Shown: positions 24,357-30,707 of the stretch, piece by piece
Layout of the letters: the number at the start of each line of letters is the position of its first letter
Position numbering within the stretch: position 1 is the stretch's first letter
Assembly (NCBI GenBank): GCA_021805985.1
Contig: JAJZDN010000001.1
Coordinates: forward strand, 62,001-126,000
DNA: 64,000 nt
Direction: 5' to 3'
Source: Planctomycetota bacterium
GTDB taxonomy: Bacteria; Planctomycetota; Phycisphaerae; WQYP01
Program-made: the position numbers and the translations under genes
Notes under the pieces: model-generated
The model's database searches: none
Seen by the model: only the letters and a program-made list of their open reading frames with translations
Told to the model about the DNA's origin: nothing

Positions 24357-27110
24357 ATGTCGTCGGCTATAAGTCATAACCCCTTCTCTGCACAAAGCGT
24401 TATTGATACACCCTTGGGAAAAAAGACGATTTATCGTCTGGATGCCTTGGATAAAATTGCGTCCGTAGGTCACCTTCCTTACAGCATTAAGGTGCTGCTG
24501 GAAGCCTGCCTGCGGAATTGTGACGGCCACCTGGTGACTGCAAAAGATGTCGAAGCGGTGCTGCGGTATGATGCAAAGAATACCGGATCTGCTGAAATTC
24601 CGTTCATGCCGGGACGCGTTGTGCTGCAGGATTTTACGGGCGTTCCGGCTGTGGTAGATCTGGCCGCCATGCGGGCCGCGATGAAACGTCTCGGCGGTGA
24701 TCCTAAAAAAGTCAATCCGCTTGTGCCGTGCGACTTGGTTATTGACCACAGCGTGCAGGTCGATGCTTTTGGCAATGGCATGGCCTTGCAGATTAACAGT
24801 GAGCATGAATTTCAACGCAATCAGGAGCGGTACCAATTTCTCAAGTGGGGGCAACAGGCGTTTAATAATTTTCGCGTAGTGCCGCCGGCCACGGGCATTG
24901 TGCATCAGGTAAATCTGGAATATCTCGCCAAGGTTGTCTGGGAGAAAAATGGCGTACTCTATCCGGATTCTCTGGTGGGAACCGATTCTCATACAACCAT
25001 GATTAACGGCTTGGGCGTAGTGGGATGGGGAGTTGGCGGCATTGAGGCCGAAGCCGTCATGCTGGGACAGCCCATTTACATGCTATTGCCAGAAGTTGTG
25101 GGCTTCAAACTCATCGGTAAACTGCGCGAAGGGTGTACCGCCACGGATATGGTTCTTACCGTCACTCAAATGTTGCGCGAACATGGCGTGGTGGAAAAAT
25201 TTGTTGAATTTTACGGTCCGGGTTTAGCTGACATGCCCGTGGCCAACCGCGCAACGATTGCCAACATGGCTCCGGAATATGGAGCTACCATTGGCTATTT
25301 CCCGATTGATGAGCAGACCTTAACCTATATGCGCTTATCCAGCCGCGATGAGAATTTAATTAAAACTGTTGAGCAGTATGCCAAAATCCAAGGCCTGTGG
25401 CGGGACGACAGCCACCACATTATCTATTCCAGCACACTGGAACTGGACCTAAGCAGCGTAGAGCCATCCCTGGCAGGACCCCGACGTCCGCAGGATCGCA
25501 TCGCCCTGACCGCCATGCAATCACAATGGCGGCAGGATTTGTCAGTAACTTACGGTAAAAATGGTGCTGCCCGCGGGTCTAATATGGAAAGCTGGCAGGA
25601 TGAAGGCGGAAATTTGGCACTGGCCCAGGCACCCGCAAAAGCTGATCCTGGTTTGGATGGCGTGCCGGTTGAATATGACGGAAAACAGTTCAAACTCAAA
25701 CATGGTGCTGTAGTTATCGCCGCCATTACCAGTTGCACCAATACCAGCAACCCCAGTGTGATGGTGGCCGCGGGGCTGGTAGCGCAAAAAGCCGCCGCAC
25801 GGGGATTAACGCGCAAGCCCTGGGTAAAAACTTCTCTGGCCCCCGGCTCCAAGGTGGTCATGGAATATCTGAACGCTGCAGGCCTTGTGAAAGCATTGGA
25901 TTCTTGCGGCTTTTATCTTGTGGGCTTCGGCTGCACGACGTGTATTGGCAATTCTGGTCCGCTGCCCGAACCGATCAGCAAGGCGATTAATGCGCATGAT
26001 CTGGTGGCCGCGGCAGTGCTGTCGGGCAACCGGAATTTTGAAGGCCGCATCAGCCCCGATGTGAAGGCTAATTATCTGGCCTCTCCACCTCTGGTGGTAG
26101 CCTACGCTTTGGCCGGGACGGTGGATATTGATTTAAACAATGATCCCCTCGGCGTGGATAAATCCGGTAAGCCCGTGTATCTGCGTGAAATCTGGCCCAG
26201 CCAGAAAGAAATCGATGATACGGTTGCCAAATCGGTATTAAGTTCGCAATTTAAGCACGAATATGCCAATGTATTTGCTGGTTCCGAAGAGTGGAAAGCC
26301 ATTGAAACCAGCACGGGTGATCAGTTCGAATGGAATCAAAAAAGTACCTATATTCAGGAACCCCCATTTTTTGTCGGCATCGAGCCGGCCGTTAAACCGA
26401 TCAAGCCCATTCAAGCGGCGCGATGTTTGGCGGTTCTCGGCGATTCCATTACCACCGACCACATCAGCCCCGCAGGATCCATTAAGAAAGACAGCCCGGC
26501 CGGAAAATTCCTTTTGGAAAACGATGTTGAAGCCAAAATGTTCAACAGTTACGGGGCGCGCCGCGGAAATGACCGTGTGATGACCCGCGGCACGTTTGCC
26601 AATATCCGCGTGAAAAATAAACTCGCACCAGGAACCGAAGGCGGCGTCACCACCGATCTGCTGGATGGAAAAGTCAAACCAATCTTTGATGCCAGCACGC
26701 ATTACAAGCAGGCCGGTGTGCCTCTGATTGTTCTCGCCGGTAAAGATTACGGCATGGGCTCCAGCCGGGACTGGGCGGCCAAGGGAACGTTCCTCCTAGG
26801 CGTGCGGGCAGTGATTGCGGAATCCTTTGAACGCATTCACCGCAGCAATTTAGTCGGTATGGGTGTGTTGCCCCTGACATTTAAAAAAGGCGAAACCGCC
26901 GCAAGCTGCGGCCTGACCGGCAAAGAGACTTTTGAAATCCATCTGACCGATGCCCTGACTCCGCGGCAAGATGTAAAAGTAATTGCCGTGAAAGAGGATG
27001 GCGGAAAAATTGAATTCACCGCCACCTGCCGCATCGATACCCCCGTAGAAGTCGAATACTACCGCAACGGCGGAATTCTGCACACCGTGCTACGGCGCAT
27101 GGCGAAGTAG
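24357..27110 (+). CDS. acnA: Aconitate hydratase A
   Basis: This 917-aa [4Fe-4S] enzyme isomerises citrate to isocitrate in the TCA cycle. Cluster cysteines are visible in [13 protein letters not shown] and in [15 protein letters not shown], the two aconitase signatures. [23 protein letters not shown] contains active-site residues. The C-terminal swivel domain includes [19 protein letters not shown] and [14 protein letters not shown] (substrate-binding Ser/Arg), then [12 protein letters not shown]. The length is typical of AcnA/IRP1-type enzymes. The ATG at 24357 follows only a weak purine-rich site. It appears monocistronic. Confidence 0.97.
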
Positions 27111-27337: not shown

Positions 27338-28018
27338 ATGACGCCGCAAATGAAATTGAATAGGCAAAACCTGCAGGACCTGCAGTGTATTCGGGACATC
27401 GGCCCGGAAAAGTTGAAACAGATCATCGCGGAAGCGGGCGGAAGGGCTGTTGCACCGATTCATCCCAAAGAGTTGCAGAAATTAATGGATCATGCCCTCG
27501 GCGGAGACCCCGTAACCGCCGATGTATTGCTAAAGCAGTTGCTGTCACTACACGGTATGCGCCGACAATTGGATTTGGATTCAGGCGATATTATCGCGGG
27601 CATCACCGCCGGTATACGTTGCGATTCCGGTTGGGATGAATCTCAGATTGGGCAGTGGGAGAGCGTCTCGGCAAAGTTTCAGGAACTATTTGATCTTCCG
27701 ATTGTCCACCTTACCGCCAAAGCTTTGGACCTGTCCTATCAGCACTCACATTTGCTGCAGAGCTCGCATGTCATTACCGACATAAGGCCGCTATTCAACA
27801 AAGATGCCAGCGAAATTCAAGGTATGACGATCTCACATAAGCTTCTGCTTCGCTATGATGATGTGGAGGGTGAGCACGGACTAAGTGTGGCATTGGATGA
27901 ACGAGACCTTAAAGCACTCATTAGACAGTGTGAACGGGCGCTTACAAAATCCAGGACAACTCAGACGCAACTGAAGAAGAAGGCGAATTTAGAGACTTTA
28001 ATTCCAGGAGCAGATTGA
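27338..28018 (+). CDS. Hypothetical protein, first gene of a three-gene cassette
   Basis: A 226-aa soluble protein with no recognised domain. The first half is helical (QDLQCIRDIGPEKLKQII, ELQKLMDHALGG). The second half holds a beta-rich segment around VITDIRPLFNKDASEIQGMTISHKLLLRYDD and a final SVALDERDLKALIRQCERALTK helix. The pattern 'VITDIRPLF ... ISHKLLLRYDD ... ALDERDL' looks like a conserved core to me, but I cannot name a family. AAAGG lies eight bases before the ATG. The stop is one base from the next start, so the genes form one operon. Confidence 0.75.
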   Translation: MTPQMKLNRQNLQDLQCIRDIGPEKLKQIIAEAGGRAVAPIHPKELQKLMDHALGGDPVTADVLLKQLLSLHGMRRQLDLDSGDIIAGITAGIRCDSGWDESQIGQWESVSAKFQELFDLPIVHLTAKALDLSYQHSHLLQSSHVITDIRPLFNKDASEIQGMTISHKLLLRYDDVEGEHGLSVALDERDLKALIRQCERALTKSRTTQTQLKKKANLETLIPGAD

Positions 28019-28019
28019 T

Positions 28020-28688
28020 ATGAACAAGAATGCTCTGATGTACAACTCCGGCGAAGAACTAAGCGGAAAGCAACTTTACCAAAGAAGTTTCACCAACCGA
28101 CTGCGTGGCGACGTCCAGCCAAATATTGGGCGTATTCAACAAGCCGGCGCAGAATCTTATCGCGAGTCTTATTTGGCTGGCGCGCAGGTTTGTATGGAAT
28201 ATCGTCGGGCCGGGATTGCGGGATTACCGAACGATATTAAGACAGATGTGCTTTATTTTCTGGTAGCGGAATATAAACTATCCCGCCACGGTTGGTTAAT
28301 ATTCCATATTTCCAGCGTAACCGATTCCTCCCCCAGCCCCGTCAAATTGCGGTCCATCTCAACGCCAGAAGCGGTGCGCCGTACTGAGACTTTTCTCGAC
28401 CGGGCAAGGCGGTTGGACAATGCCGGAAATACCGATGCGGCGCTGGACCTGCTATATGAAAACGTTAATGGTAAGCTCTCTCTTGGGCGTTTCAAAGATG
28501 TTGACTCAGTGTTGGAAACCACGGAACCGATGTCACTGTCAGTCGACCTCATGCTGGGATTGTTGACATCGACTTTGCCTGCCAGGACGAAATTGCCGTC
28601 TCGCAGTACTTTTTTCCAGAAATCTGAAGCGGCCATAAGAGATCGTAATGAATGGGAAGATGGACTCTTGACGGGGTTGGAAAATTGA
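28020..28688 (+). CDS. Hypothetical protein, second gene of a three-gene cassette
   Basis: A 222-aa protein with CAGGAG about nine bases before the ATG. The N-terminal half is of mixed composition (RLRGDVQPNIGRIQQAGAESYRESY). The C-terminal half, NAGNTDAALDLLYENVNGKLSLGRFKDVDSVL, then LMLGLLTSTLPARTKLPSRSTFFQ, has the spacing of a helical-repeat (TPR-like) adaptor. I know no function. Its 3' end overlaps the 5' end of the third gene, which indicates coupled translation. Confidence 0.7.
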   Translation: MNKNALMYNSGEELSGKQLYQRSFTNRLRGDVQPNIGRIQQAGAESYRESYLAGAQVCMEYRRAGIAGLPNDIKTDVLYFLVAEYKLSRHGWLIFHISSVTDSSPSPVKLRSISTPEAVRRTETFLDRARRLDNAGNTDAALDLLYENVNGKLSLGRFKDVDSVLETTEPMSLSVDLMLGLLTSTLPARTKLPSRSTFFQKSEAAIRDRNEWEDGLLTGLEN

Positions 28689-29380
28689 GCCAGACAGCAC
28701 TGGGCCGCGTTTTTACCGCACATGAACGGCCGTTTGAGCAAATAGATTTTGCGGCACTGGCCATCACGCAGTTGGGGGCAGACACCGAACAGCGCCACAT
28801 CGGAATATTGTACAAAGGCGAGTCAGATGGGGGCGTTTTGATGCTGCATCTTGCATGGCATTATAAACTAAAATCCGAACCTCCGGAAAGCACTTACGCA
28901 TGGATTAGGCCGCCGATACCAAGGCCACGGTCTCGACAAGTCGCAGCATTCTGCCGCATGATTCTTAAAGAGAATCCGAATGGGATTCCGTACGCGTTCA
29001 GTCCCGCAAGTGATAGTCTTGATAAGCAATCGGGGAAATTTAGCAACGGGTCCGGTGGCTATGGCCTGACCTGCACCACGTTCGTGCTCGCTGTTTTCGA
29101 CGCCACCGGCCTGCCGCTGGCCCAATACAACACGTGGCCGTCAAACCGCCAAGAAGATGAGCGATGGCGCGAGCATATCATCGGCCTCCTTGAGCGGAGC
29201 GGCGCGGAGCCAGAACATATCCAAAAAGTGCGAGCTGAACGGGATGCAATTCGTTATCGCCCGGAGGAAGTTGCCGGTGCCGCTGCTTGTACGATGATTC
29301 CCGCTCATTTTAATGATGCGTATGAACTCGCGGGACAAATCGTGGCAAAGCTTCAAAATACCGGTTGTGTCACTTGGTAA
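28652..29380 (+). CDS. Putative permuted papain-fold (NlpC/P60-like) protein, third gene of the cassette
   Basis: A 242-aa protein. RHIGILYKG with a nearby LMLHLAWHYKL gives an early His, and GYGLTCTTFVLAVFDATGLPLAQ gives a later Cys at the head of a helix. The His-before-Cys order, with a Cys-x-x-Phe-helix, is that of circularly permuted NlpC/P60-like enzymes (YiiX/LRAT type), which act as amidases, peptidases or acyltransferases. No signal peptide is present. Two starts are possible: the ATG at 28652, inside the upstream gene, and a TTG at 28685 that overlaps the upstream stop. The fold is an inference from motif order only. Confidence 0.6.
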   Translation: MGRWTLDGVGKLSQTALGRVFTAHERPFEQIDFAALAITQLGADTEQRHIGILYKGESDGGVLMLHLAWHYKLKSEPPESTYAWIRPPIPRPRSRQVAAFCRMILKENPNGIPYAFSPASDSLDKQSGKFSNGSGGYGLTCTTFVLAVFDATGLPLAQYNTWPSNRQEDERWREHIIGLLERSGAEPEHIQKVRAERDAIRYRPEEVAGAAACTMIPAHFNDAYELAGQIVAKLQNTGCVTW

Positions 29381-29536
29381 ATACGCCCCGGCCGGTGTGC
29401 CGCCACTTGGCGGCATTTGGCCGGACAATTCGCCGTCGTAGGGCCCACACTCTGGATCGGGCAGCCGGGTGCGGGCGCAAACTTTTCATGCAATTCCCTT
29501 GCGCGGCCAACATCAAGAATCTCGTGATTATGAAGC

Positions 29537-30355
29537 TTAATTTCCGGTGCCTGGGCTTTGGCCGTTGGGTGGAAGGCTACGCAGCAATGGGCCTCGGCGA
29601 GCGGCTTCATGCAAAAACAGCAGCACAATGCCAGGCCCGAAGGTCCAGAGCAGCACCGTACCACCGAGGATCAATCCGGTATATGACCCGGTTTCGCAAT
29701 AACATTCTCCCTTGCTTTTTGACCGCAGAATCATCACATGCACGGGGGCACTTACCAGCAGTTCCAGAATGCTTCCGGCAAACAGGACCCGCAAGGTGCG
29801 TTCCAACTGGGTCCCGCGACTGCCCGGGCGCCAGTAGAAAAAAAATATCACCGCCCAAAGTGCCCACAATGCGGCCAGAACCAGCAGTACCGGCCAACTG
29901 CGAAACGTCATACCGTTTTGCGTGCCGTGATTGTACACGCATATCAATTTATCCCAAACGCCGATCAGCTCCGCCAGAGTGGCCAGAAATCCGACGCTCA
30001 AAAGCGCCGCCATGAGCGATGCAACCATCACCGATAGCCGTAATGGCCGGCCGTTGTCATGTATGCGGATCCGCCAGCCATGACTCGGGCACAGAAAAAG
30101 CCACTGGCTTAAAAGAAAGAAACCGGCCACAATCGTGGCGGAAAAAAAGTACGTAGACTGATGCTCCGCGAAAAGCCCCATGACGCCTTCCAACCCCCAA
30201 CGGCCGAGGGTCAAGCCGCCCGGTTTAGCCAAGTCAGTGAGCCGGTTCGACGGGAGCGGGGCAAACACCCAGAACAGCGCCGCCAGCCAGCAGCAGATCA
30301 CCCCTGCCAACAGCCACCACCGGATGCGTCCCGCCGTGATCTGATAACGTGACAT
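29537..30355 (-). CDS. Six-helix membrane protein, hypothetical
   Basis: A 272-aa integral membrane protein with about six hydrophobic helices (for example WWLLAGVICCWLAALFWVF, YFFSATIVAGFFLLSQW, LVLAALWALWAVIFFFYW and the C-terminal LILGGTVLLWTFGPGIVLLF). Between helices 2 and 3 is a short hydrophilic loop, and a KSKGECYCETGSY segment lies before the last helix. No family recognised. It is convergent with the three-gene cassette, and both lie in the stretch between acnA and tRNA-Ile. Confidence 0.7.
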   Translation of the reverse strand: MSRYQITAGRIRWWLLAGVICCWLAALFWVFAPLPSNRLTDLAKPGGLTLGRWGLEGVMGLFAEHQSTYFFSATIVAGFFLLSQWLFLCPSHGWRIRIHDNGRPLRLSVMVASLMAALLSVGFLATLAELIGVWDKLICVYNHGTQNGMTFRSWPVLLVLAALWALWAVIFFFYWRPGSRGTQLERTLRVLFAGSILELLVSAPVHVMILRSKSKGECYCETGSYTGLILGGTVLLWTFGPGIVLLFLHEAARRGPLLRSLPPNGQSPGTGN

Positions 30356-30454
30356 CGCTAACCCTTTTTGCAGGCAACGTTATTATGATGGTCGTATGAT
30401 AATCCGCAGGGGGTTAAAGTCAAAAAATAAGTAACATCCCATGAGGTGCTTCCA

Positions 30455-30619
30455 ATGGCTGTCAAAGGTATCAATCGTCGCTTTTGCATTCTAATGGTTT
30501 TCGCCGCACTAACATCGATTCTCCGGTCGTCATACGTATCGGGCAAGGTTATGTCGGTGGGAGAGGATCGCTGGGTGGCGCAATCCATCTCGCGAAAATG
30601 CGACAAACTACACATATAG
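30455..30619 (+). CDS. Possible 54-aa small protein
   Basis: ATG at 30455 has GAGG about eight bases upstream and gives MAVKGINRRFCILMVFAALTS followed by a polar tail ending DKLHI. A weak hydrophobic stretch could be a membrane helix or signal. No family; coding is uncertain because the ORF is short. Confidence 0.3.
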   Translation: MAVKGINRRFCILMVFAALTSILRSSYVSGKVMSVGEDRWVAQSISRKCDKLHI

Positions 30620-30633
30620 TCGTGTAAATATGA

Positions 30634-30707
30634 TGGGCCTGAATGGATTCGAACCATTGACCTCGTCATTATCAGTGACGCGCTCTAACCAGCTGAGCTA
30701 CAAGCCC
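30634..30707 (-). tRNA. tRNA-Ile (anticodon GAT)
   Basis: A 74-nt cloverleaf on the minus strand: acceptor GGGCTTG pairs with CAGGCCC (one G-U), the D-loop region is TAGCTCAGCTGGTTAGAGC, the anticodon loop is CTGATAA (GAT), the T-loop is GGTTCGAATCC, and the discriminator is A. The 3' CCA is not encoded; the next bases are TCA. It stands alone. The accessory stretch 27.3-30.4 kb lies on its 3' side, the usual side for integration. Confidence 0.97.

Follow-up and report, generated by a model that had tools for sequence, protein, structure and literature searches.

The core subunits of the human Commander complex include the COMMD proteins, and the reason for their ring is poorly understood. 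Linkers of CCDC22 and CCDC93 thread through this ring in human Commander and contact its peripheral domains, and eukaryotic COMMD proteins have a role in cargo recycling (PMC10187114). The existence of COMMD-like proteins in bacteria is already implied by PDB entries of 2025. In this study, we analyzed a 64,000-nucleotide stretch of a Planctomycetota bacterium (assembly GCA_021805985.1, contig JAJZDN010000001.1, positions 62,001 to 126,000), referred to here as the window. It carries a 2.1-kb cassette in which gene 1 encodes a bacterial COMMD-like protein, gene 2 a putative adaptor, and gene 3 a predicted permuted papain-like enzyme (Table 1). We hold, with somewhat more belief than doubt, that this cassette is a mobile three-component conflict module in which gene 1 would act as a ring scaffold and sensor, gene 2 as an adaptor restraining gene 3, and gene 3 as the effector. 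Its role would probably be anti-phage, of the abortive-infection type, or addiction-like.

The initial annotation, made from the sequence of the window, could not assign gene 1 to a family. We investigated gene 1 with an AlphaFold2 model based on 8 homologues (predicted local distance difference test, pLDDT, 78.8). The model contained seven helices, three strands and, in addition, one long helix, with an all-alpha N-terminal part (residues 9-142) followed by a COMM domain of three strands and a helix (residues 144-216). This is the arrangement of the COMM fold, in which three antiparallel strands and a long helix follow an all-alpha N-terminal domain. In a Foldseek search, the bacterial octameric COMMD-like structures 9q6a and 9q6c came top (9q6a_B, E=3.7e-8, prob 1.00); the octamer is as given in the PDB entry title of 9q6a. 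Human COMMD ring subunits came next (8f2r_B, E=9.4e-5; 8p0w_H, 3.1e-4), and the isolated COMM domain of Commd9 (6bp6) had a template modeling (TM) score of 0.56 by target. The sequence profile of gene 1 also matched 9q6a (E=3.6e-20 over residues 4-211), independently of the fold search. A similarity of gene 1 to SecB or DUF3467 had been considered at first and was abandoned in view of the COMMD matches.

The conserved-looking core of gene 1, VITDIRPLF...ISHKLLLRYDD, which the initial annotation had pointed out, was present, and its TDxRP motif was kept down to 18-27% identity. The bacterial signature in alignment A8 reads TDxRPxF...ALDxxD...R...K, with R150, D187, D190, L194 and K204 invariant. 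The Trp of the COMM domain is reported to be strictly conserved in eukaryotic COMMDs (PMC10187114). No invariant Trp was found in A8, an alignment that includes the 9q6a sequence, and because of this absence we labeled gene 1 COMMD-like rather than eukaryotic-type. The Pfam COMM domain model found 0/13 bacterial members at E<=1, and the bacterial branch seems to be beyond its reach. Sequence and model together indicate that gene 1 is a bacterial COMMD-like protein and not a eukaryotic-type COMMD. A COMMD search with the 9q6a sequence in plasmids, phages and viral contigs gave no match, and genomes sampled from the phyla to which L023, L022 and L031 belong added no clear ones. Two marginal gene 1 matches in frames of about 690 amino acids (L052, L070) were left out of the counts.

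The cassette is organized as an operon. Its genes are co-directional, with a gap of 1 nucleotide between genes 1 and 2 and an overlap of 4 nucleotides (TTGA) between genes 2 and 3. Gene 3 could start at ATG 28652 or at TTG 28685, which overlaps the stop of gene 2. Judging from the sequences, TTG 28685 is most likely the start, because gene 3 of the same-genus relative G007 begins with ATG at the equivalent position and has the same 4-nucleotide overlap. The ratio of non-synonymous to synonymous substitution rates (dN/dS) between G000 and G007 was 0.08 for gene 1, 0.28 for gene 2 and 0.16 for gene 3; therefore, the three open reading frames are real genes under purifying selection. Promoter and terminator scans were uninformative. 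The identical gene order was found again in further genomes. The proposal of an undescribed, tightly coupled three-gene cassette was thus right in that the cassette is real and recurs as a unit, but the interval originally drawn, to position 30707, takes in a membrane protein gene and a tRNA that lie outside it.

Gene 2 had been suggested to be a helical adaptor, and this was supported by its position: at each of the 21 untruncated loci, window included, it immediately precedes gene 3. With leave-one-out profiles, gene 2 was re-detected directly upstream of gene 3 at 19/19 loci, each time as the sole significant match in the locus. At the fully held-out locus L031, the gene 2 region was detected (E=3.4e-10) as the rear part of a fusion with an XRE-ImmA/IrrE protein. 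L024 and L027 carry genes 2 and 3, but no first gene could be recognized there. As shown in alignment A11, the N-terminus of gene 2 is variable, and the last 100 or so residues are conserved and helical, ending in LxGL(E). The N-half is also the fastest-evolving part, with a dN/dS of 0.445 between G000 and G007 compared to 0.14 for the C-half. Gene 2 had no match among PDB sequences.

The predicted catalytic residues of gene 3 are conserved. H38 in an HxG motif and C130 in a GLTC motif were invariant in 20 homologues (alignment A5), and with few exceptions position 55 was H, E, D or N. In the AlphaFold2 model (pLDDT 92.2), strand 33-44 carries H38, strand 51-57 carries residue 55, and C130 opens helix 130-140. 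Gene 3 has no obvious signal peptide. Its C-terminal part matched phrog_11836 (6.5e-7); there was no match in Pfam, and tblastn against INPHARED phage records also gave none. Gene 3 is probably a permuted papain-like enzyme, but because neither fold nor profile searches matched a known member significantly, we describe it as papain-like in its layout and have not assigned it to the family. The earlier assignment to the permuted papain or NlpC/P60 type stands for the His-before-Cys order and the confident model; the fold neighbors that could be recognized were few and of the papain-like or YiiX type, and none was significant. The fold search did not point away from a papain-like fold, yet it does not fully exclude another one.

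Co-occurrence of the genes was observed directly. All 16 well-scoring gene 1 loci head a three-gene cassette, with a second and a third gene following, which excludes a scatter of homologues without co-occurrence. Gene 1 was combined with the window type of gene 3 at 8 loci (the window, G007, G002:C326, G306, G491, L021, L022, L023), with a DUF7689 third gene at 3 loci (L004, L006, L007), and with a second class of third gene carrying an FSCxG motif at 3 loci (L013, L072, L073). The FSCxG class (alignment A9) aligned with gene 3 around the Cys motif only (prob 59, P=9e-5). Another His-then-Cys protein followed gene 1 at L071, and a Fic protein with the motif HPFLNGNGR did so in a viral contig (L040). 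First genes are exchanged as well, and at L031 an XRE-ImmA/IrrE protein stands in that position. TIGR04255 took the place of gene 1 before gene 3 at L026, L029, L035 (by sequence) and L038 (annotated), before DUF7689 at L041, L042, L077 and L098, and before Fic at L084, where the Fic protein was 30% identical to that of L040 (E=3e-32). Thus, each of these two kinds of first gene, COMMD-like and TIGR04255, is found with all three kinds of effector. The DUF7689 and gene 3 profiles were unrelated by hhalign (prob 0.2), and DUF7689, TIGR04255 and the second papain-like class had no matches in the PDB.

Several further observations concern these variants. TIGR04255 was present in 46/150 sampled genomes of the class (loci L076-L105), where it heads many small cassettes with DUF7689, Fic or helix-turn-helix-containing second genes. 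The usual Fic motif has Asp or Glu at a position where both Fic-type third genes (L040 6749-7417 and L084 2551-3219, HPFxNGNGR) have Asn. Some 2 kb separate a TIGR04255 gene from a COMMD-DUF7689 cassette (L010 6494-7264 and 9305-11057, G017:C58), so that the two first-gene types stand together. A 233-amino-acid protein upstream of a DUF7689 cassette (L044 2424-3125) is, by layout, a candidate for a very distant COMMD-like protein.

Mobility and defense neighbors were also observed, the latter in several relatives. In G404:C172, a BREX operon harbors a COMMD-adaptor-enzyme cassette between its pglX and brxC/pglY genes, with everything on the same strand (L072 1721-8850, L018 2244-2897); pglX matched DUF7008 (8.4e-80), and brxC matched PADLOC BrxC (E=0). 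A 1426-amino-acid NACHT protein and a GIY-YIG (PDC-S14-like) protein are directly upstream of a COMMD-DUF7689 cassette in G002:C272 (L011 3413-8461). The module was further found downstream of a type I HsdS (L028), next to multiubiquitin-ThiF-DUF6527 genes (E1-E2 models) on a Rhizobium plasmid (L038), and, in L009 (G002:C326), with Cas9 and Cas1 about 5 kb away. Integrases adjoin it in L023 and in the phage contig L034, where the gene 3 homologue comes directly after the integrase, and serine recombinases adjoin it in L071. Phage contigs carry gene 3 homologues, and the module is the main unassigned cargo of a 6.9-kb Acinetobacter plasmid and a 6.6-kb Psychrobacter plasmid.

The chromosomal site of the cassette was compared among relatives. 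In G006, whose aconitase is 97% identical, the cassette is absent, and the membrane protein gene and tRNA-Ile are kept; its intergenic sequence is unrelated, which makes this a case of presence and absence and not a precise empty site. In G004, an unrelated gene for a 318-amino-acid repeat protein (beta-propeller-like; L065 578-1534) lies between aconitase and tRNA-Ile, marking a variable site. The tRNA had been taken for the integration side of the cassette. It is not the insertion point, because both the tRNA and the membrane gene are present in G006, which has no cassette, and G004 has an unrelated gene at the site. Tests for att-like repeats found none, and together with the interposed conserved membrane gene and the G006 arrangement this led us to reject tRNA-directed integration. 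The membrane gene P0004 was rejected as a fourth member of the cassette, being conserved in relatives that lack it. Its product has no assigned family, and the gene adjoins tRNA-Ile both in relatives that carry the cassette and in those that do not.

Table 1. Features of the cassette and its surroundings (positions in the window)
Feature	Position	Strand	Description
Gene 1	27338..28018	+	226 amino acids, COMMD-like protein
COMM domain of gene 1	27767..27985	+	Approximate; TDxRP...ALDxxD signature; from DSSP of the model and alignment A8
Gene 2	28020..28688	+	222 amino acids, putative adaptor; variable N-half, conserved helical C-terminal region ending LLTGLEN
Gene 3	28685..29380	+	231 amino acids, predicted cytosolic permuted papain-like enzyme, TTG start
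Aconitase	24357-27110		Named from sequence; 5' of cassette
Membrane protein open reading frame P0004	29537-30355	-	272 amino acids; 3' of cassette
tRNA-Ile(GAT)	30634-30707	-	

For the mode of action, we infer a ring assembly of gene 1, a restraint and activation of gene 3, an effector chemistry and a biological role. Gene 1 would probably be an oligomeric ring, as is known for its relative 9q6a, and would serve as the scaffold and sensor platform. The fast-evolving N-half of gene 2 would probably engage the ring or a trigger. Its conserved helical C-terminal region, with the LxGL(E) tail, would bind, and probably restrain, gene 3. By analogy, this role may be comparable to that of the CCDC22 and CCDC93 linkers in Commander. 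Gene 3, with the predicted residues His38, polar residue 55 and Cys130, would be the effector, acting as a cytosolic protease, amidase or acyl hydrolase/transferase. It would be released or activated when the complex detects an infection or that the module has been lost.

Several results weigh against this conflict module. The flanking genes in the window are housekeeping genes, and none adjacent is defense-related; the defense setting suggested earlier is therefore seen in several relatives but not at the window itself. In relatives, defense genes are often close by, which is an impression without a matched control and not a statistic. Only about 1% of the sampled genomes of the phylum carry the cassette, and PADLOC-DB 2.0.0 had no match for genes 1-3; it also had none for the DUF7689-type cassette or the TIGR04255 partners. 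The fold search with gene 3 had no significant match. The cysteine peptidase 3kw0, a YiiX-type permuted NlpC/P60 structure, reached TM 0.31/0.36 (E=3.6), with USP matches as well, and a YaeF/YiiX C92 protein of Terrestrivirus reached TMt 0.40, again not significant. In an alignment that was not significant (E of 1.2-1.5), the gene 3 profile paired H38 with the HIGIVY strand of LysK, a CHAP endolysin. The housekeeping neighbors, the low dN/dS and the function of eukaryotic COMMDs in cargo recycling (PMC10187114) would also fit a housekeeping or regulatory complex, for example for protein or lipid modification, with no role in conflict. We consider such a complex improbable, as the cassette is patchy and mobile, has swappable parts, is absent in close relatives, and is found on plasmids, in phages and in defense operons.

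A toxin-antitoxin or addiction system is the more serious rival, although we still think it unlikely. Gene 3 would then be a toxin neutralized by gene 2, together with gene 1 or a replacement regulator, and the module would persist by stabilizing mobile elements, with phage defense at most a by-product. The pair of genes 2 and 3 as a minimal unit in L024 and L027 and the XRE-ImmA/IrrE partner fused to gene 2 in L031 are suggestive of this, and the small plasmids with the module as their main unassigned cargo and the use of Fic and DUF7689 as alternative third genes point the same way. However, three genes with a conserved COMMD-like scaffold exceed the need of a two-component antitoxin, and several copies lie inside or beside known defense operons. 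The gene 3 homologues in phage contigs, one of them right after an integrase, and the COMMD-Fic version in a viral contig would suit a phage- or element-encoded exclusion or counter-defense module that guards the element against competitors. Chromosomal copies without phage genes and the co-orientation in the BREX operon fit a host-side system instead, and we give this exclusion module as little credence as the housekeeping complex.

COMMD-like proteins occupy the first position of mobile cassettes whose enzymes can be exchanged, and one such cassette lies in a BREX operon; this suggests a bacterial role for these proteins and possibly an origin in conflict. A broader proposal sees the bacterial COMMD-like proteins as ring-forming hubs of modular immunity, to which interchangeable effectors (permuted papain-like, DUF7689, Fic) dock through an adaptor. 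In that case, the eukaryotic COMMD proteins and Commander would be descendants of bacterial conflict systems or would have a common ancestor with them. This proposal is tentative, and our doubt about it exceeds our belief. The 2.1-kb cassette makes the question of COMMD function directly testable, and it supplies a context, and hence a testable function, for TIGR04255, DUF7689 and phrog_11836.

We compared the cassette with known systems. Searches of Pfam, PADLOC and NCBIfam gave no family matches of note for genes 1-3. The open-access literature, with preprints outside its scope, yielded nothing on bacterial COMMD proteins, although a paper behind 9q6a may exist, and nothing on DUF7689 or TIGR04255. 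Gene 3 shares with permuted NlpC/P60 enzymes (YiiX/YaeF C92, LRAT-like) and CHAP the His-before-Cys order, the Cys at a helix start, the His in an HxG strand and the polar residue on the next strand, but differs in having no significant sequence or fold match to them. Its C-terminal part is like phrog_11836, whose function is unknown. Cassettes with TIGR04255, DUF7689 (PF24738) or Fic (PF02661) have the same architecture, with TIGR04255 as interchangeable first gene and DUF7689 and Fic as third genes, although the window proteins are not homologous to these by the tests used, as for DUF7689 and gene 3. Gene 1 is a bacterial COMMD-like protein, as is that of Flavobacteriaceae (MBK5214510; PDB 9q6a, 9q6c, 9q6d), with sequence homology over the full length to 9q6a. 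It has the same architecture of helical N-terminal part and COMM domain as the ring COMMDs of human CCC/Commander (8f2r, 8p0w). Unlike the human proteins, the bacterial members have no Pfam COMM match and no invariant Trp, and gene 1 shares its operon with genes for an adaptor and an enzyme and not with CCDC22/93 or Retriever. The operon context, the swappable effectors and the defense neighborhood of bacterial COMMD-like proteins appear to be new.

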